A stretch of 64,000 nt of DNA from Gallionella sp. (lineage in GTDB: Bacteria; Pseudomonadota; Gammaproteobacteria; Burkholderiales; Gallionellaceae), in the NCBI GenBank assembly GCA_028688275.1, contig JAQTYN010000006.1, positions 1 to 64,000 on the forward strand, in the 5' to 3' direction. The translations under genes and the position numbers were made by a program. Positions 33,523 to 41,705 of the stretch are shown here, piece by piece; within the stretch, counting starts at the first letter, position 1, and every line of letters starts with the position of its first letter. The notes below the pieces were generated by a model, which worked only from the letters and a program-made list of their open reading frames with translations, was not told where the DNA came from and searched no databases.

Positions 33523-33858
33523 TTAAACGCAGCCCGTTGGCTTAGGCAAACCTGCGATTTTGCACGCTTGTTTACCAGGGCCGTAAGGGAACAAACCATA
33601 CAGATATTCGCTATTGCCTTTGTCCGCGCCCAACTTCTTACCGATGGACTTGGTCAACACGCGTACCGCAGGTGCGATTTGATATTCTTCAAAGTATTCG
33701 CGCAGGAAATTAACCACTTCCCAGTGCTGTTCGGTCATTTCGATGCTTTCTGTTTTAGCGATGTAATCTGCTACTTCTTTATTCCATTCAGACAAGTCAG
33801 TCAAATAACCTTCTTCATCTGTTTCATAACTTTTACCGCCGACTTCGATGCTGGACAT
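33523..33858 (-). CDS. dsrC: DsrC sulfur carrier protein
   Basis: 111 residues with both redox cysteines of a genuine DsrC: Cys99 in GKQACKIAGLP and the penultimate Cys110 in KPTGCV. Persulfide sulfur from DsrEFH is loaded on DsrC and presented to DsrAB; the trisulfide form is handled by DsrK. The usual core HWEVVNFLREYFEEYQIAPA is present. This is the functional reference for the two degenerate homologues encoded at 38474 and 40353. Confidence 0.97.
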   Translation of the reverse strand: MSSIEVGGKSYETDEEGYLTDLSEWNKEVADYIAKTESIEMTEQHWEVVNFLREYFEEYQIAPAVRVLTKSIGKKLGADKGNSEYLYGLFPYGPGKQACKIAGLPKPTGCV

Positions 33859-36054: not shown

Positions 36055-37350
36055 TTAGGCAGATTGTTTCTTAGCATTGATCTTGGCAACTTCGTCGTCC
36101 CAACCATCGGTACGAACATAAGGGTTCATACGTGGCGAATTTACCATCGCAGGATCGACATCCAGTTCCATGGCATCCAAGAAGTTCGCCAAACCAATCC
36201 GTTCGATCATTTCGCCAGTACGCTCATGTTCCAGTGCATTTTCGGCAAAGAAATCAATGGTACGTTGTGCGAAATCCACTAGCTTTTCAAGATTTTCGTC
36301 TGTATCCAGCTTGATAAATGGAATCACCACGGTGCCCATCAATCCACCAATTTTCAGGTGACTCTTACCGCCGACCAACACGGTAGCACCCTTGTCATTA
36401 CCAGGAGCCAACGCGCCCGTCATGACGTTGATGCAGTGCATACAGCGCACACAGTCTTGGTTATTGATTTCGATGCCATGCGTATCACTCACCGCAACGG
36501 TAGAAATATGCTCGCCCGTTTTGATTTTTTTCAGTTCTTTCACTTGGAAAGTCTTGGTTGGGCAACGCGCCACGATGTCATTGACCAATTCATCCATGCC
36601 GTGCTTAGCGAACCAGGTTTTCGCCAACGCTTCATCGGTGCGAATGTTGTCACGCCAAGTACCAATCACCGCCATATCCGCACGTTGCACGGAGTTCATA
36701 CAGTCATTTGGGCAACCTGAGAACTTGAATTTGAATTTGTAAGGCAGAGAAGGACGATGAATATCATCCAAGAAAGTATTGATGACCGCACGATGGGTCT
36801 TCGCTTCGTCGTAGCAGGATTGTTCGCAACGCGCTGCACCCACACATGACATCGAAGTACGTACCGCAGGACCCGCACCACCCAAATCAAAACCCATTTC
36901 ATTGAGTTCATCGAAGGCTTTTTGTACGTTTTCGGTGGTCGCACCTTGGAACATAATGTCGCCAGACTGACCATGGAATGCAATCAAACCCGAACCATGA
37001 CGATCCCAGATGTCGCAAAATTGTCGTAGCGTCGCGGTGTCGTAGTGCATCCCAGCAGGAGGCATAATACGCAAGGTATGGAATTCAGCCGCATCCTTAA
37101 ACTTCGGCGTACCGTCTTCATTCTTTAGCTCAGTAAAACGTGGAATCACCCCGCCACCGTAGCCAAAAACACCGACCGTACCACCCTTCCAATAACCTTT
37201 GCGAGTTTTGTAAGACTCTTCTAGCTGACCTAACAGATCAACCACGTAGTCTTTATCTTTAGCCAACTCTTTCAGCCCCGTCACGAAACTAGGCCAAGGA
37301 CCATCCTCAAGCTGATCTAGGTTTGGGGTATCATGCATCTGCTTCGCCAT
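36055..37350 (-). CDS. dsrA: Reverse dissimilatory sulfite reductase alpha subunit
   Basis: 431 residues. The sirohaem-cluster cysteines are CVGAARCEQSC and FSGCPNDCMNS; the ferredoxin insert has DCVRCMHCINVMTGAL. It begins MAKQMHDTPNLDQLEDGPWP, and AGGAAGA lies seven bases upstream of ATG 37350. First gene of the dsr operon; its promoter must lie in the 267-bp gap shared with the divergent small gene at 37618. Confidence 0.97.
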   Translation of the reverse strand: MAKQMHDTPNLDQLEDGPWPSFVTGLKELAKDKDYVVDLLGQLEESYKTRKGYWKGGTVGVFGYGGGVIPRFTELKNEDGTPKFKDAAEFHTLRIMPPAGMHYDTATLRQFCDIWDRHGSGLIAFHGQSGDIMFQGATTENVQKAFDELNEMGFDLGGAGPAVRTSMSCVGAARCEQSCYDEAKTHRAVINTFLDDIHRPSLPYKFKFKFSGCPNDCMNSVQRADMAVIGTWRDNIRTDEALAKTWFAKHGMDELVNDIVARCPTKTFQVKELKKIKTGEHISTVAVSDTHGIEINNQDCVRCMHCINVMTGALAPGNDKGATVLVGGKSHLKIGGLMGTVVIPFIKLDTDENLEKLVDFAQRTIDFFAENALEHERTGEMIERIGLANFLDAMELDVDPAMVNSPRMNPYVRTDGWDDEVAKINAKKQSA

Positions 37351-37617
37351 TGTTCTTCCTTTCAGTCGCGTCAGACTTCGGTTCTATGCCCTGCGGGGCA
37401 GTCATTTATCGGATATGTCCGAGTTCTATCAATGTTCAGACTCGGTTTCTTGATGGGACGCATACTACGGGGCATCCACCTATCAAACTATTACCCATAG
37501 CGGGTATCTTTTATAACCCTAATGGGTGTTATTTCTCTTCCGCGAGTAGTATTCCAAATCAGTATGATTTAACGATACACTACACGCACAAAATTAATGA
37601 CCCATAAAGGTAATCTC
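37351..37617. promoter_or_regulatory. Divergent regulatory region dsrA / Cas6-like operon
   Basis: Contains two spaced dyads, ACCC-N5-GGGT (37493-37505) and ACCC-N4-GGGT (37516-37527), centred 23 bp apart, that is, about two helical turns. TATGAT (37563-37568) is a plausible -10 box for the rightward operon. The arrangement suits one transcription factor controlling both directions. No regulator gene is adjacent. Function is inference. Confidence 0.4.
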
Positions 37618-37842
37618 ATGGCTGAAATCAGTAGTCTAGCGAAGCTCAAGGTTCCCTTGGGTTCACAAGAAATCGAATTACAGCAGATCGACCATGCGGA
37701 AGGTGGCATGAGTTTGATGCGCATTCGTATTCGAGAAGGTAAACGTTTCACCATTTTTGATATCGACCCCAGCACCGCACGTGAGTGGGCAATGGAGATG
37801 CAGAAATGGGCAGACCAACAAGACGCGACCTCCCATGAGTGA
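37618..37842 (+). CDS. Small unrecognised protein, first gene of the Cas6-like/DsrC-like operon
   Basis: 74 residues from ATG 37618, preceded by AAGG; the upstream in-frame ATG at 37597 is less likely. It reads as a small beta-rich protein: LKVPLGSQEIELQQIDH, MSLMRIRIREGKRFTIFDI, then a helix DPSTAREWAMEMQKWAD. No cysteine and no membrane segment. Its stop overlaps the next start by 8 nt, so it is translationally coupled to the Cas6-like gene. Function unknown; the position facing dsrA suggests a role in sulfur oxidation. Confidence 0.7.
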   Translation: MAEISSLAKLKVPLGSQEIELQQIDHAEGGMSLMRIRIREGKRFTIFDIDPSTAREWAMEMQKWADQQDATSHE

Positions 37843-38437
37843 TACCAGCCCAAAACTGATAGATGCCGTGTTTGATGTCAGTGGCGACACCTTACCTGCC
37901 GCCTACCCTTTTGCACTTTGGGACGCATTGCTACAGCATCTTCCTCAGCTGGCATCTGACCACTTGGTCGGTGTCGTGCCATTGCGCACCACCCACAGTG
38001 AAGCGGGTATGCTACTGCCTAAGCGTGCCAAACTCGTCCTGCGTATGCCTATCGAAATGGCGGAACACGCCGCGTCTTTGTCCATGCAGCAGCTAGACCT
38101 CGAAGGCAGCACGTTGCAGCTTGGCTGCCTTAAATTGCGCCCACTTCAGCCCTACCCCACGCTACATGCGCACTTGGTCAGTACCGATGTTGAAGAGGTG
38201 CAATTTATAGACTACGTAAATACACGACTGACGGAACTGGGAATCGTCGCTAACCTGATCTGCGGCATGCGCAATCAGTTGGAAACCCCGCAACGCAAAA
38301 TACAAGGCTACAGTCTGGTGATACACGATTTAAAACCAGATGCTTCATTACGACTGCAATACACAGGATTAGGTGCCGACCGCCATTATGGTTGCGGCAT
38401 ATTTGTGCCCTACAAAGCCATTACCGATTTGGACTAA
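37835..38437 (+). CDS. Cas6/Cmx6-like RNA-binding protein without CRISPR
   Basis: 200 residues from ATG 37835. The C-terminal glycine-rich loop TGLGADRHYGCGIFVPYK, the segment NLICGMRN, and IQGYSLVIHDLKPDASLRLQ match the Cas6 subfamily named Cmx6 (type I-MYXAN), and the N-terminus AVFDVSGDTLPAAYPFALWD matches its start. From memory, members usually have a DHGY-like motif after the GxxLP; here it is AAYPF, so a commonly used histidine is missing. Cas6 proteins bind and cut CRISPR RNA, but no repeats or other cas genes are in the window. It is embedded between sulfur-related genes, so a non-CRISPR RNA role or a pure binding role is likely. Confidence 0.75.
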   Translation: MSDTSPKLIDAVFDVSGDTLPAAYPFALWDALLQHLPQLASDHLVGVVPLRTTHSEAGMLLPKRAKLVLRMPIEMAEHAASLSMQQLDLEGSTLQLGCLKLRPLQPYPTLHAHLVSTDVEEVQFIDYVNTRLTELGIVANLICGMRNQLETPQRKIQGYSLVIHDLKPDASLRLQYTGLGADRHYGCGIFVPYKAITDLD

Positions 38438-38473
38438 TGGTGGCGTAGGTTTTTTTCATTAAACGGAGGAAAT

Positions 38474-38803
38474 ATGACTTACATCGTAGCAGGCAATGAA
38501 TTGGAAACTGACGCAGAAGGCTATTTGTTAGAAGCCGACTATAGCGATGAAGTAGTTGAAGTGATCGCAGCGGCAGAAGCCATAGAATTAACCCCTAAAC
38601 ACTGGGAAATCATCAACTTTATGCGCGAACAATATCGCGAACACGGGCATACGCCCAACTTCCGCAATATGTTAAAAGCCGTCAATGAATTTTGGCCAGA
38701 AGCAGACAGCAAAGCCTTATATGATTTATTCCCCATAGGTCCAGCCAAGCAAGCTGCAAAAGTAGCGGGCTTGCCACAACCTTTAGGCAAGGGCGGATAC
38801 TAA
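38474..38803 (+). CDS. DsrC-like protein lacking both redox cysteines
   Basis: 109 residues with the DsrC/TusE fold (DAEGYLLEADYSDEVVEVIA, PKHWEIINFMREQYREHGHT, LYDLFPIGPAKQAAKVAGLP). The residue equivalent to the inner cysteine is Ala95 (QAAK), and the C-terminus LGKGGY has no cysteine; the protein contains no Cys at all. It cannot carry sulfur as DsrC does. Regulatory DsrC-family members without these cysteines have been called RspA, so a regulatory or binding role is likely. An AACGGAGG ribosome-binding site precedes ATG 38474. The next gene starts 3 bp after its stop. Confidence 0.88.
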   Translation: MTYIVAGNELETDAEGYLLEADYSDEVVEVIAAAEAIELTPKHWEIINFMREQYREHGHTPNFRNMLKAVNEFWPEADSKALYDLFPIGPAKQAAKVAGLPQPLGKGGY

Positions 38804-38806
38804 GCG

Positions 38807-39415
38807 ATGCGTATCAAAAGTAAGTGGTTTTTGGCGGGACGCGAACACACGCCCGAAGAACTGGCGGGTGCGGTCGCCTTTAATGTGTCGCGCATCGCTG
38901 AAAACGCACTGAAAAATACCCGCAAGGCGAAATTTGAGGTGGCCATCGGCCCACAATATTTCGCCTTTCTGGCTGAATTTCTGGTGTTTTTGATACTGGT
39001 GGCGGACAGACTGGCTTATCGTCAGTTCACAGCCGAAAACCGCAACATCTTCACCAGCCGTCTTGCCAATCATGTCGCCGCCACTTATGCGGAGAATCAC
39101 AGCCGCTTGATGAACGGCGAGTTGAGCATTAGCAAACAACAATTTATCGACTTGCTGAATCAACGAGCAGGTGAATATGCAGAATTTGGCTACAGCGAAA
39201 CAGGGCCTGATTTTGCCTTTACCCGTTATCTGGCTTTCTGCATGGGACAGATTATGGACGACGGAGATCGCGACTGGATCATCGACCAAATTATGAGCAT
39301 CGAATCCCCCAATGCCATCGACATGCTGGAGAAAAACTTCCGCGATTTGCTAGATACCAAACCTCGCCCTGCCCGCCCACTGCGTCGTCGCCTTACCCCT
39401 GTCAAGACTCGCTAA
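38807..39415 (+). CDS. Unrecognised protein in the DsrC-like operon
   Basis: 202 residues, not recognised. Largely helical: an N-terminal segment SKWFLAGREHTPEELAGAVA, a hydrophobic helix FAFLAEFLVFLILVADRLAY (about 50-70), a helical middle with LANHVAATYAENHSRLMNGE, and a basic Pro/Arg-rich tail (RPARPLRRRLTPVKTR). The hydrophobic helix is followed by charged residues and may be buried rather than a membrane span. It ends one base before the TauD-like ATG (TAACATG), so translation is tightly coupled. Partner or role unknown. Confidence 0.7.
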   Translation: MRIKSKWFLAGREHTPEELAGAVAFNVSRIAENALKNTRKAKFEVAIGPQYFAFLAEFLVFLILVADRLAYRQFTAENRNIFTSRLANHVAATYAENHSRLMNGELSISKQQFIDLLNQRAGEYAEFGYSETGPDFAFTRYLAFCMGQIMDDGDRDWIIDQIMSIESPNAIDMLEKNFRDLLDTKPRPARPLRRRLTPVKTR

Positions 39416-39416
39416 C

Positions 39417-40292
39417 ATGACAAACCCTTTCGACCTTAGCAACCCTGCCGCCTATTTAGATTGGCGTGCGCATAAATTAGCTCACGCCATTACTGAGACG
39501 AATGAGCTGATGGTCGAAATCAAAGACCCCCACGCACTCACCGCTGCTGAACGCGACGCAGTACTGTCGTGCTGCCAGCGCAGCAATATGGTCGTTTATG
39601 CCTCGACCACGCCCATAGATGAACGCGGCATGCAACACTTGAGTATCCAACTGGGACTACAACGATTAGATGCCAACTGGCTGGCTGGCGAACAAGGGAT
39701 CACCCGCATTACCGTGTGCCGCGACGAAAACACGCGCCAAACCTATATTCCCTATACCGATCGCGCCATCAAATGGCATACCGACGGCTATTACAATCCG
39801 TCAGAACGTCAAATACGCGCCATGGTATTGCATTGCGTGCACGAGGCGGGGTCGGGCGGTGAAAATCGCATCATGGATCACGAAATTGCCTATTTGCTGC
39901 TGCGCGATGCGAATCCAGATTTTATCCGCGCCCTTTACGCTCCCGATGTGATGACCATTCCTGAGCGCGTCGATGAAACCGATGGCATTCGCCCCGCCCA
40001 AACGGGTTCTGTATTTTCAGTCGATGCAACAGGTCGATTACACATGCGCTACACCGCTCGCACCCGTAGCATAGCTTGGAAACAAGACGACACCACCCTT
40101 GCGGCGGTCAAGTTTTTGGAACAACTACTGGCGACTCCCTCACCGCATATCCATCAACTCAAACTTCAAGCGGGCATGGGCTTGCTATGCAACAACGTCC
40201 TACATGACCGCACCGCCTTCACCGACGACCCGAATCATCCACGCCTGCTCTACCGCGCCCGCTATCTGGATAGAATCGCCGACCTGCCGTAA
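39417..40292 (+). CDS. TauD/TfdA-type Fe(II)/2-oxoglutarate dioxygenase
   Basis: 291 residues. The iron triad is visible as KWHTDGYY (His and Asp) and NNVLHDRTAF (distal His), with an Arg-containing RLLYRARYLD downstream that could bind 2-oxoglutarate. NRIMDHEIAYLLLRD and MRYTARTRSIAWK fit the TauD fold. TauD releases sulfite from taurine, but the substrate cannot be read here and the neighbours give no taurine transporter. Coupling with DsrC-like genes suggests a sulfur-related or protein/RNA-modifying reaction. Closely packed in the operon. Confidence 0.85.
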   Translation: MTNPFDLSNPAAYLDWRAHKLAHAITETNELMVEIKDPHALTAAERDAVLSCCQRSNMVVYASTTPIDERGMQHLSIQLGLQRLDANWLAGEQGITRITVCRDENTRQTYIPYTDRAIKWHTDGYYNPSERQIRAMVLHCVHEAGSGGENRIMDHEIAYLLLRDANPDFIRALYAPDVMTIPERVDETDGIRPAQTGSVFSVDATGRLHMRYTARTRSIAWKQDDTTLAAVKFLEQLLATPSPHIHQLKLQAGMGLLCNNVLHDRTAFTDDPNHPRLLYRARYLDRIADLP

Positions 40293-40352
40293 GTCTTTAA
40301 AGAATATGGGCTGCAAGCTCACTATTTCCAAACCATAGTCAAGGAGCACCGT

Positions 40353-40682
40353 ATGGAATCCGCCCTGCCATTACTACCCGACCGAGATGAAGAAGGCTAT
40401 CTGATTGATCCCGCGCAATGGAATGAGACCGTCGCGCTGACTTTGGCGCAAGAAGCGGAACTGACTTTGAGCGAAGCACATTGGCAAGCGATCCACTTTA
40501 TGCGCAACTATTACGCAGAACACCAAGTCATCCCCGATGTTCGCCACGTCATCAAACATCTGGCAGAGGAACACGGCAGCAAAGACCGCAACCTGATCTT
40601 TACCTTATTCCCCTACGGCTATGTCGCCCAAGCCTGCAAAATCGCTGGCATGAAACGTCCTAGGGGTTGGAGTACGGGTTAA
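40353..40682 (+). CDS. DsrC-like protein with one redox cysteine
   Basis: 109 residues with DEEGYLIDPAQWNETVALTL, AHWQAIHFMRNYYAEHQVIP and LFPYGYVAQACKIAGMKRPR. Cys95 matches the inner cysteine of DsrC, but the C-terminal arm ends RGWSTG without the penultimate cysteine. It therefore cannot form the intramolecular disulfide or trisulfide. Last gene of the operon, 60 bp after the TauD-like gene with AAGGAG upstream of ATG 40353. Could bind the same partners as DsrC in a blocked form or act as a persulfide acceptor. Confidence 0.88.
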   Translation: MESALPLLPDRDEEGYLIDPAQWNETVALTLAQEAELTLSEAHWQAIHFMRNYYAEHQVIPDVRHVIKHLAEEHGSKDRNLIFTLFPYGYVAQACKIAGMKRPRGWSTG

Positions 40683-40935
40683 AAATTGCCGCTACAACTA
40701 TCACGCACATCCTATCACGATGGCAAATATTGAATAATATACAAGACCCTACGTCAATCGTATCTTCGAGCTTTCTTCTAAATCGGAAACCGAACAACCC
40801 CCATCCCGCTACGGCTTGCTGGAGTCTGCCTTGGGCGCAAAGCTAGTTCTTCAAAGGTTCGGATGCATTAACCGTGCGCCCCATTGTGCCTAACAAGTAA
40901 AATTGTGAAACCAAGGACACTTTAATCACGTGCGA

Positions 40936-41301
40936 TTAAGGAGCTAGATCTTCAATCAACTTTATTAAATCTGCCACTTTTGCAGGATTGATTGGTTTTT
41001 GTAAGACATGTACGAAACCCGCTTCTAGTGCTGACTCCATCACACCTTTTTCCGTACTGGCTGTCAACATGACCATTTTCGCGTTAATGCCCGCTTTCTG
41101 AAAGACTTTTGCAATTTCAACACCGTTGTGTTCGGGGATGTTGTAGTCCAACACCACCAAGTCAGGAGGGGATTTTTTAGCCTTAGCCAGCGCATCAGGC
41201 AAATTACCTGCTTCACTGACCTCATGTTTCTTACCCTTAGGCATACAGGCACCAAACAACATACGCGAAGTCATGCTGTCATCCACTATTAAGATTTTCA
41301 C
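40936..41301 (-). CDS. CheY-type single-domain response regulator
   Basis: 121 residues, receiver domain only. Acidic pocket Asp7-Asp8 (VDDS), phospho-acceptor Asp52 (VVLDYNIPEHNG), Thr80 (MLTAS) and Lys102 (LQKPI) are all present. Last gene of the chemosensory operon, overlapping the previous gene by four bases (ATGA). It may feed a motility machine such as type IV pili or gliding, or act as a phosphate sink for CheA. Confidence 0.93.
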   Translation of the reverse strand: MKILIVDDSMTSRMLFGACMPKGKKHEVSEAGNLPDALAKAKKSPPDLVVLDYNIPEHNGVEIAKVFQKAGINAKMVMLTASTEKGVMESALEAGFVHVLQKPINPAKVADLIKLIEDLAP

Positions 41302-41705
41302 TTTTCTTTCCTCTCACTAACCTTGTTTATCCGACTTTTCAATAACACCAATGCCTCGCTTGTGCCATGATCGAAACCGTTCGGTAATTCGTCATCACAA
41401 CACCACCCCATCTTGATCCCTGACAACAACCATTGCCAATCCTGGAAATCCACTGGCTGACCTGCCTGTTGCTGATTATGCAAATAACGTAAATAACGTG
41501 CCATACTGCGGAAATACTCTTCCTGCTCTGACCGCACACGCACCGCGATCGCCCCACCAAATAAAGTATCGTACTCTTGATACAATTGCACGAGCTGCTC
41601 ATCCGTTAAGGGTGTGCCTGCTTGCACAATTTCAGCAATCCTCACATTACGTGCACGGCAATCTTCACAAAAAGCTTGTGCTAAATTGGCCGCGATATGC
41701 TCCAT
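41298..41705 (-). CDS. Unrecognised protein between cheB and cheY
   Basis: 135 residues, mostly helical. It has a CEDC pair near the N-terminus (AFCEDCRAR) and WCCDDE near the middle, and the segments LTDEQLVQLYQEYDTLFGGA and YFRSMARYLRYLHNQQQAG. No family recognised. Overlap of four bases with the cheY start and a 13-bp gap after cheB show it belongs to the operon. Possibly an adaptor or a phosphatase-like partner of CheY, but no catalytic motif is seen. Confidence 0.7.
   Translation of the reverse strand: MEHIAANLAQAFCEDCRARNVRIAEIVQAGTPLTDEQLVQLYQEYDTLFGGAIAVRVRSEQEEYFRSMARYLRYLHNQQQAGQPVDFQDWQWLLSGIKMGWCCDDELPNGFDHGTSEALVLLKSRINKVSERKEK

Follow-up and report, generated by a model that had tools for sequence, protein, structure and literature searches.

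A Cas6-family gene in a conserved operon facing dsrA: a candidate accessory module of sulfur oxidation in Gallionella and its relatives

What is a gene from a family associated with clustered regularly interspaced short palindromic repeats (CRISPR) doing next to the genes of reverse-Dsr sulfur oxidation? The question is raised by a 64,000-nucleotide stretch of DNA (hereafter, the window), the initial 64 kb of contig C94 (JAQTYN010000006.1) of a draft Gallionella sp. genome (GCA_028688275.1; 3.16 Mb, 112 contigs). In it, six plus-strand genes at positions 37618–40682 face dsrA across 267 bp. The original prediction read these genes as an operon that pairs a protein with Cmx6 features with two altered DsrC-like proteins and a TauD-like dioxygenase, and proposed that the set regulates sulfur oxidation through RNA. 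Profile searches confirmed the six-gene operon and its divergence from dsrA. The Cmx6 features are likewise real: the motifs quoted for the protein (including NLICGMRN) are present, and its scores exceed the cut-offs of both PF09559 (26.7 bits) and TIGR02807 (98.85 bits). The reading that we favour, tentatively and at a little short of an even chance, is that the operon is an accessory module of reverse-Dsr sulfur oxidation, probably co-regulated with dsr, that has drawn a Cas6-fold protein away from CRISPR use.

The genes of the operon travel together and, where searched, with dsr (counts refer to the searched genomes, in samples that overlap: G000, G080 and others recur). In a sample of 101 genomes, the window's own and relatives, a profile search placed PF09559—the family of the Cas6-like protein, hereafter Cas6L—in 40 genomes, and PF22295, the family of the DUF6967 protein encoded by the first gene, in the identical 40. 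A dsrA gene was found in 41 genomes (39 over the cut-off, plus two accepted by judgement: split frames in G074 and a fragment in G042), 39 of which also carry Cas6L (Fisher p 2e-24; this test, like the Mann-Whitney tests of charge and isoelectric point, ignores relatedness). All three mismatches are contig ends: the contig of G060 stops 30 nt past dsrA, that of G042 2 nt past its dsrA fragment, and that of G031 177 nt past DUF6967, short of where dsrA would begin. In a sample of 118 genomes from the order, PF09559 occurs in 22, and g4 (the fourth gene) in those 22 plus G527. In a phylum-wide sample of 398, with dsrA counted at E values up to 1e-40, PF09559 occurs in five genomes and PF22295 in ten, all of them with dsrA. 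As a side observation, dsrA of G074 is split at the same spot into two matches (1–127 and 160–399) in both of its copies (L037 on C59, and C13).

Gene order is conserved as well. Using profiles built here, we annotated 56 Cas6L loci (44 in a first round, window included, and 12 in a second); of the 42 places with PF09559, 40 were fetched, the window being the 41st, and G058, where DUF6967 and dsrA share one contig, was left out. Both rsp1, which encodes the first DsrC-like protein, and g4 are present in 56/56 loci, rsp1 always on the same strand as Cas6L; g4, which the original prediction left unnamed, is conserved as strongly as Cas6L itself. Wherever the sequence reaches dsrA (55 loci), that gene is divergent. 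DUF6967 is a separate open reading frame (ORF) in 55 of the 56 loci and part of a fusion in the remaining one, and tauD is present in 48. Of the eight loci that lack tauD, two lie on contigs that end right after g4 (L055, L060), and six (L037, L043, L051, L119, L122, L127) have sequence well beyond the operon. The last gene of the window's operon, rsp2, was found in only six of 56 loci (on the opposite strand in L075; as a weak match of 68 bits in L126), and so falls outside the conserved set in which the original prediction had placed it. These results support a conserved, CRISPR-independent set tied to dsr; the proposed link to sulfur oxidation holds as co-occurrence with dsr in the searched genomes, and conservation elsewhere, on which the original prediction had staked its case, is seen at 56 loci. 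Two genomes, G011 and G059, each hold two copies of the Cas6L locus on separate contigs, reflecting either duplication or mixed assembly.

The features of the locus are collected in Table 1. The DUF6967 and Cas6L genes overlap by 8 nt. The minus-strand dsr operon reads dsrA-B-E-F-H-C-M-K, followed by further dsr genes (dsrA and dsrC named by profile, the others read from the sequence). The named relatives found are two Gallionella metagenome-assembled genomes (MAGs) and one Nitrosomonadales MAG; the Cas6L of locus L034 is 94% identical to that of the window. Comparison of the window with L034 shows purifying selection on all six genes, with ratios of nonsynonymous to synonymous change (dN/dS) of 0.016 to 0.125 (Rsp1 0.016; Cas6L 0.083).

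Table 1. Features of the Cas6L operon, the facing dsr genes and the region between them (positions in the window)
Feature	Position	Strand	Evidence or remark
True DsrC, both C-terminal cysteines	33523..33858	-	profile
dsrA, first gene of divergent dsr operon	36055..37350	-	TIGR02064, 491.9 bits
-10-like box TAGTAT, dsrA	37462..37467	-	distance from dyads; putative promoter
Operator-like double dyad ACCC-N5-GGGT / ACCC-N4-GGGT	37493..37527	.	between divergent genes
-10-like box TACACT, Cas6L operon	37576..37581	+	after block AGTAGTATTCCAA at 37545-37557; putative promoter
DUF6967 protein, 74 aa	37618..37842	+	PF22295, 106.6 bits
Cas6-like protein (Cas6L), 200 aa	37835..38437	+	PF09559, 174.6 bits; TIGR02807 cas6_cmx6, 140.5 bits
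Rsp1, DsrC-family, no redox cysteines, GKGGY end	38474..38803	+	PF04358, 115.9 bits
g4, conserved protein, 202 aa	38807..39415	+	no family above cut-off; kept in 56/56 Cas6L loci
TauD/TfdA-family dioxygenase	39417..40292	+	PF02668, 78.4 bits
Rsp2, DsrC-like, inner cysteine only, optional	40353..40682	+	PF04358, 105.9 bits

Could Cas6L simply be a genuine Cas6 that serves arrays elsewhere in the genome? Its scores above both family cut-offs speak for this, as does the presence of CRISPR-Cas in the window's genome: contigs C34 and C33 (L113/L114) carry a type I-C locus (cas3, Cas5c, Cas8c, Cas7, Cas4, Cas1) and a type II locus (Cas9, Cas1). The original prediction noted a window free of CRISPR repeats and other cas genes; the genome does contain CRISPR-Cas elsewhere. 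Neither of its two types, I-C and II, works with a Cas6. Across the 101 genomes, a Cas1 match was found in 20/40 with Cas6L and in 20/61 others (association p 0.099, relatedness ignored); completeness reaches 90% or more in 12 of the 20 Cas6L genomes that gave no Cas1 match. Where Cas1 and Cas6L co-occur, they lie on different contigs in 19 of 20 genomes and more than 0.6 Mb apart in G080. The constant company of a type I-MYXAN system, which the original prediction had raised as the competing outcome, is therefore not what was found: half of the 40 genomes with Cas6L gave no Cas1 match, and the PF09559 genomes of the phylum sample all (5/5) have dsrA. That no cas genes adjoin Cas6L holds for Cas1 throughout and for other cas genes in the neighbourhoods scanned for them. 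A simple script detected no CRISPR array in 49 neighbourhoods (44 with Cas6L, 5 without), and found arrays in just 2/7 control cyanobacterial loci, which limits what it can reveal in short stretches. The single stretch that it flagged, around 1483–1650 of L042, proved to be no CRISPR array: a 67-bp unit is repeated there in tandem, with a GC-rich palindrome. Taken with the separate clade described below, these results make a CRISPR role extremely improbable, and Cas6L as a genuine processor of CRISPR RNA (crRNA) was rejected on the grounds of the Cas1-less genomes, the Cas6-free CRISPR types of its own genome, the separate clade and the absence of arrays, by this script, from the 49 neighbourhoods.

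Cas6L also differs in sequence from its CRISPR-linked relatives, for which the comparison comprises seven cyanobacterial plasmid Cmx6 proteins (out of eight matches). At six of these seven loci cas3, cas5 and other effector genes adjoin cas6; the seventh, L079, is without them. There, a Gloeobacter plasmid Cmx6 (5974–6765) has no cas genes within 6 kb (in an incomplete gene table). It belongs to a run of genes that also encodes a PAPS-reductase-family protein and a cupin, perhaps a second non-CRISPR setting for the family. In an unrooted tree of 22 sulfur-linked and seven CRISPR-linked sequences, the two groups separate with support of 100/99. Residue counts over 56 sulfur-linked and the seven CRISPR-linked sequences give Cas6L a pattern of its own: Glu121 (56/56 versus 0/7), Lys194 (55/56 versus 0/7), Arg64 (55/56 versus 1/7), Cys143 (53/56 versus 0/7) and His164 (50/56 versus 0/7). 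Cys187 is present in 55/56 sulfur-linked sequences, and it and Arg183 each in 6/7 of the CRISPR group. An Asp-His pair found in 7/7 CRISPR-linked Cmx6 is mostly missing, its His being kept in 17/56 sulfur-linked sequences and the window having Ala-Tyr instead; a catalytic role for this pair is a guess of ours, not a curated family criterion. The core of Cas6L has a median net charge of +0.1 (-4.7 to +5.3, n=44) compared with +2.2 to +13.1 in the CRISPR group (n=7), ranges that overlap, and a median isoelectric point (pI) of 7.1 (5.8–9.4, n=44) compared with 8.5–9.8 (n=7). These changes of residue and charge are consistent with a change of partner.

The same protein keeps its glycine-rich loop, GLGADRHYGCGIF, and matches the Cas6 of PDB entry 8fcj_B (E 8.6e-9), in which the Asp-His pair is also missing its His. 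Both points favour an RNA-level regulator, in which Cas6L would bind, and perhaps cut, a specific hairpin in dsr or other sulfur transcripts with Rsp1 as its partner. That a DsrC-family partner adjoins Cas6L in 56/56 loci fits this too, and there is a precedent in TusE, which works with the tRNA-modifying enzyme MnmA. Other results speak against it. RNAalifold returned no structure in any of eight sets (six operon spacers and two leaders), a weak test given gap-rich alignments, an rsp1-g4 spacer set of two sequences only, and hairpins in coding regions lying outside it. A search of positions 36500–41500 against Rfam gave one match, far below the gathering score and taken as chance. The near-neutral core of Cas6L is a further point of difference from the basic CRISPR proteins. 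We consider RNA-level regulation rather unlikely; RNA processing by Cas6L is possible, with homology and the kept glycine-rich loop as the whole of its positive support.

The DsrC-like proteins show a comparable departure from their family. As originally predicted, one or both redox cysteines are missing: the window's Rsp1 (102.5 bits against TIGR03342) is without both C-terminal cysteines, and Rsp2 (94.7 bits) keeps the inner one (QACKIAG) and is without the last. Across loci, the last redox cysteine is absent from 56/56 Rsp1, and the inner one is absent from 37 and present in seven of the first 44. Every Rsp1 (56/56) ends in GKGGY, whereas the DsrC proteins of the fetched loci (n=42) end in GCV or GCI; the invariance of the ending argues that the arm is not decaying, and is instead held to a different sequence. 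Rsp1 forms a clade apart from DsrC (support 100/98), as does Rsp2 (100/99), in a tree for which the program warned of long branches. It is plausible that Rsp1 senses the state of DsrEFH/DsrC.

The genes of the operon also occur in other combinations. In L056, DUF6967 and Cas6L share one 294-aa frame in which both domains score above the cut-off, a fusion that argues for the two proteins working together. In L115 (G527), dsrA is divergent from DUF6967, a tandem TusA and g4, and both Cas6L and Rsp1 are absent; their joint absence suggests that these two form a pair. The gap between rsp1 and g4 is a slot for sulfurtransferases: among the first 44 loci it holds a tandem TusA (each with two CPxP motifs) in 33, a two-domain rhodanese in five and neither in six, and in all 12 second-round loci it is filled (four TusA, eight rhodanese). 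One tandem TusA and one rhodanese from the slot were checked against Pfam. Both families are components of the relay supplying DsrEFH and DsrC. For DUF6967 and g4 no useful PDB, NCBIfam or PHROG match was obtained; the TPR-like PDB matches of DUF6967 span only about 12 residues, and g4 has no Pfam or NCBIfam family above the cut-off and no PDB match. In TauD, the motifs WHTDGYYN and CNNVLH are conserved over 44 sequences; we take them to be the HxD...H iron triad.

The conserved TauD motifs, together with the invariant GKGGY tail of the 56 Rsp1, also fit a different account, in which the operon is an enzymatic or maturation module: the targets of DUF6967, TauD and their partners would be DsrAB, its siroheme or DsrC, which they would assemble or modify (one example being an action of TauD on the tail of Rsp1), with Cas6L as a scaffold. 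Loci outside the order lend weight to it. In four of them (L098–L101), dsrA is divergent from tauD and DUF6967, and Cas6L, Rsp1 and g4 are absent; by profile scan, the next gene after the pair is a siroheme synthase in L099 and L100. L101 has an ORF of similar length at that position, and the next ORF in L098 is oppositely oriented. In a fifth genome outside the order (L097), tauD and DUF6967 lie on a different contig from dsrA. Set against this account are the eight of 56 loci without tauD, six with sequence well beyond the operon, and the position of the window's cysG (read from the sequence) at the far end of the dsr operon. We judge the maturation account unlikely. The occurrence of tauD-DUF6967 without Cas6L outside the order hints that this pair may have come first and that Cas6L, Rsp1 and g4 joined it later, the direction of change being our inference.

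A regulatory tie between the two operons is suggested by the DNA that separates them, which carries a double dyad shared among the loci. The consensus of the dsrA-DUF6967 intergenic regions, ATCACCC-N2-AGCGGNTA-N7-TAACCC-NNAN-GGGT, was found in 32 of 43 regions with up to four substitutions, and in 34 of 43 with up to six and a looser spacer, versus 0 of 860 shuffled controls. Simple ACCC-N3..6-GGGT dyads occur at 1.58 per kb in these regions versus 0.11 per kb over whole loci. On the Cas6L side, a TANACT box lies 16–18 nt past the block AGTAGTATTCCAA in 32/32 aligned regions; on the dsrA side, a TANNAT box stands at a near-fixed distance from the dyads, again in 32/32. The dyads are thus upstream of both likely starts. 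Beyond the first set, a single dyad or more is present in seven of the 12 second-round regions (of the five without, two are short stretches), and the four regions outside the order (L098–L101) contain no such dyad.

Genome-wide, the strict pattern (up to three mismatches) occurs in 31/101 genomes, all of them Cas6L genomes and each time in the dsrA intergenic region; G007 has it once more, before tusA, and a reversed-pattern control gave 0 genomes. A looser double-dyad pattern, searched in 61 genomes, occurs in 22/24 Cas6L genomes and 1/37 others (reversed control, six genomes). Cas6L genomes contain 15 further places with it: 13 before tusA, one before soxYZ and also a flavocytochrome c sulfide dehydrogenase gene, and one next to nothing relevant. 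Behind 11 of the 13 tusA places stand dsrE2 and a FadL-type gene, the other two being cut by contig ends; gene families behind looser-pattern dyads were checked for L041 and L106. The 13 tusA-operon dyads (L041, L044, L051, L058, L059, L063, L067, L068, L102–L105, L107) have ATGGAC behind the dyad, and in eight of them a TATAAT box lies 26 nt downstream. As the element sits upstream of promoter-like boxes and recurs before other sulfur operons, it looks like a DNA site. The palindromes were also considered as an RNA substrate of Cas6, an idea rejected because they lie upstream of the boxes on both sides (32/32) and recur before tusA; base changes within the dyads of the aligned regions are too few to judge covariation. 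The recurrence before tusA-dsrE2 suggests that the Cas6L module is probably part of a sulfur regulon and that, at least within the genus, a putative DNA-binding regulator probably ties the Cas6L operon, dsr and sulfur-trafficking genes together. Of the RNA-based sulfur regulation originally proposed, then, the regulatory link is supported by an operator-like element shared within the window's genus, and RNA binding or processing is unsupported.

Which protein would bind the dyads? One passage of a published study (PMC5944118, citing Grimm 2010) reports that DsrC of A. vinosum binds DNA upstream of dsr, and this makes Rsp1 a candidate. In an account compatible with the module reading, the double dyad would have Rsp1 itself as its transcription factor, and the other genes of the operon would supply effector machinery. 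The strict dyad is confined to genomes with Cas6L and Rsp1, and a LexA-like helix-turn-helix (HTH) is weakly matched in 6/22 Rsp1 versus 0/5 DsrC (in the Rsp1 set, row L043 was mis-trimmed and 21/22 rows match DsrC). The HTH match is below the cut-off, however, Rsp1 is acidic (median pI 4.7), nine of 40 Cas6L genomes are without the strict dyad, and a regulator encoded elsewhere, for which no search was made, is equally possible. We regard Rsp1 as the dyad regulator as decidedly unlikely.

Returning to the accessory-module reading, the following mechanism would accommodate the above. Rsp1 may act as a sulfur-inert mimic or decoy of DsrC, filling a DsrC site without carrying sulfur. Its conserved GKGGY arm would let it bind a partner of DsrC (DsrEFH, DsrAB or DsrMK), where it would report or limit the relay traffic supplied, when present, by the operon's TusA or rhodanese. 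Cas6L, which most likely no longer cuts crRNA, would join DUF6967 in partnering Rsp1 as a protein-level sensor or scaffold, and these two would relay that state to the expression or assembly of dsr; g4 and TauD would be accessory. A more specific version, that Cas6L bound to DUF6967 and paired with the dead Rsp1 uses a near-invariant cysteine to read the persulfide load of TusA/DsrEFH/DsrC and governs the dsr regulon at the RNA or protein level, we find doubtful.

Several observations weigh against the accessory-module reading. Firstly, 48 of the 53 dsrA genomes of the phylum sample are without Cas6L and 43 of 53 without DUF6967, so the module is lineage-restricted and dispensable for dsr as such. 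Secondly, Cas6L retains what is expected of an RNA-binding protein, the glycine-rich loop and Arg183 (53/56), and the Cas6 of PDB 8fcj has Asp-Asn aligned to the Asp-His pair, so that the missing pair is no proof of lost cutting. Thirdly, the joint loss of Cas6L and Rsp1 (L115) and the fusion (L056) are one case each, and the window's own operon has nothing in the sulfurtransferase slot. Fourthly, the presence of tauD and DUF6967 with dsr outside the order, without Cas6L and, in the two loci scanned, next to siroheme synthase, points to a role of these two in maturation. Finally, the strict dyad, missing in nine of 40 Cas6L genomes, was seen in the window's genus only; binding of it by proteins of the module is a candidate role, and the acidity of Rsp1 and its weak, below-cut-off HTH matches do not favour it.

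If the more specific, sulfur-sensing version is true, a Cas6-family protein has become fixed in energy metabolism as a domesticated sensor of sulfur state. The locus would offer a handle on the control of dsr sulfur oxidation in these bacteria, and would yield a concrete candidate regulon, marked by double dyads in front of dsr, of tusA-dsrE2 and of a single soxYZ operon. Most discussion of Cas proteins with roles beyond immunity concerns reduced CRISPR systems carried by mobile elements; one paper (PMC6452270) describes exapted variants of this kind, none of whose functions had, by its account as of 2019, been probed by experiment. Here, a single Cas6-family gene is kept by selection in an energy pathway, in many genera of one order, without CRISPR. 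Since the protein scores above the cut-off of the TIGR02807 equivalog, annotation will label it a type I-MYXAN CRISPR-associated Cas6/Cmx6, and the present reading would correct that name. In open-access full text (subscription literature lay outside the search) we found no paper linking Cas6 to DsrC, TusE, dsrA/dsrB or sulfur oxidation, and, among the matches listed, none on a cysteine-less DsrC or on Cas6 in a dsr locus; three papers that match Cas6, DsrC and sulfur oxidation together mention Cas6 in a CRISPR setting only, in the portions of these papers that matched. As far as these searches show, the parts belong, except g4, to known families, and their combination, with a stable non-CRISPR home for a Cas6-family protein, is apparently undescribed there.

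Three known systems offer a comparison. The first is the TusA/rhodanese relay of Dsr oxidizers, whose families also occupy the operon slot in the window's relatives; the slot differs in holding a tandem TusA with two CPxP motifs or, in other families, a two-domain rhodanese, and the window's operon has neither. The second is DsrC/TusE (PF04358, TIGR03342). Rsp1 shares with it the profile family, the core around LYxLFP and the C-terminal AGLPxP, and differs in lacking the C-terminal cysteines, ending in GKGGY and forming a separate clade beside an intact DsrC. Additional DsrC-like proteins are not peculiar to this locus: another sulfur oxidizer has three, according to a passage of PMC5944118. 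The names Rsp1 and Rsp2 were coined in this analysis on the model of RspA and RspB.

RspA and RspB, reportedly introduced by Venceslau and colleagues in 2014, are said to be regulatory sulfur-related DsrC homologues lacking both cysteines or one. The window's Rsp1 (both lacking) and Rsp2 (one present) resemble them in this; a tie to a Cas6-fold protein, to DUF6967 and to g4, and the GKGGY tail, are not known features of RspA/RspB. The third system is the Cas6/Cmx6 of types I-MYXAN and I-B (TIGR02807, PF09559; PDB 8fcj), with which Cas6L has in common its family, its length, Arg70 and the glycine-rich loop with Arg and Cys. Unlike these proteins, Cas6L has no adjoining Cas1 or array and mostly no Asp-His motif, is near-neutral rather than basic, and forms its own, sulfur-linked clade, in which alone Cys143, Glu121 and Lys194 are near-invariant.

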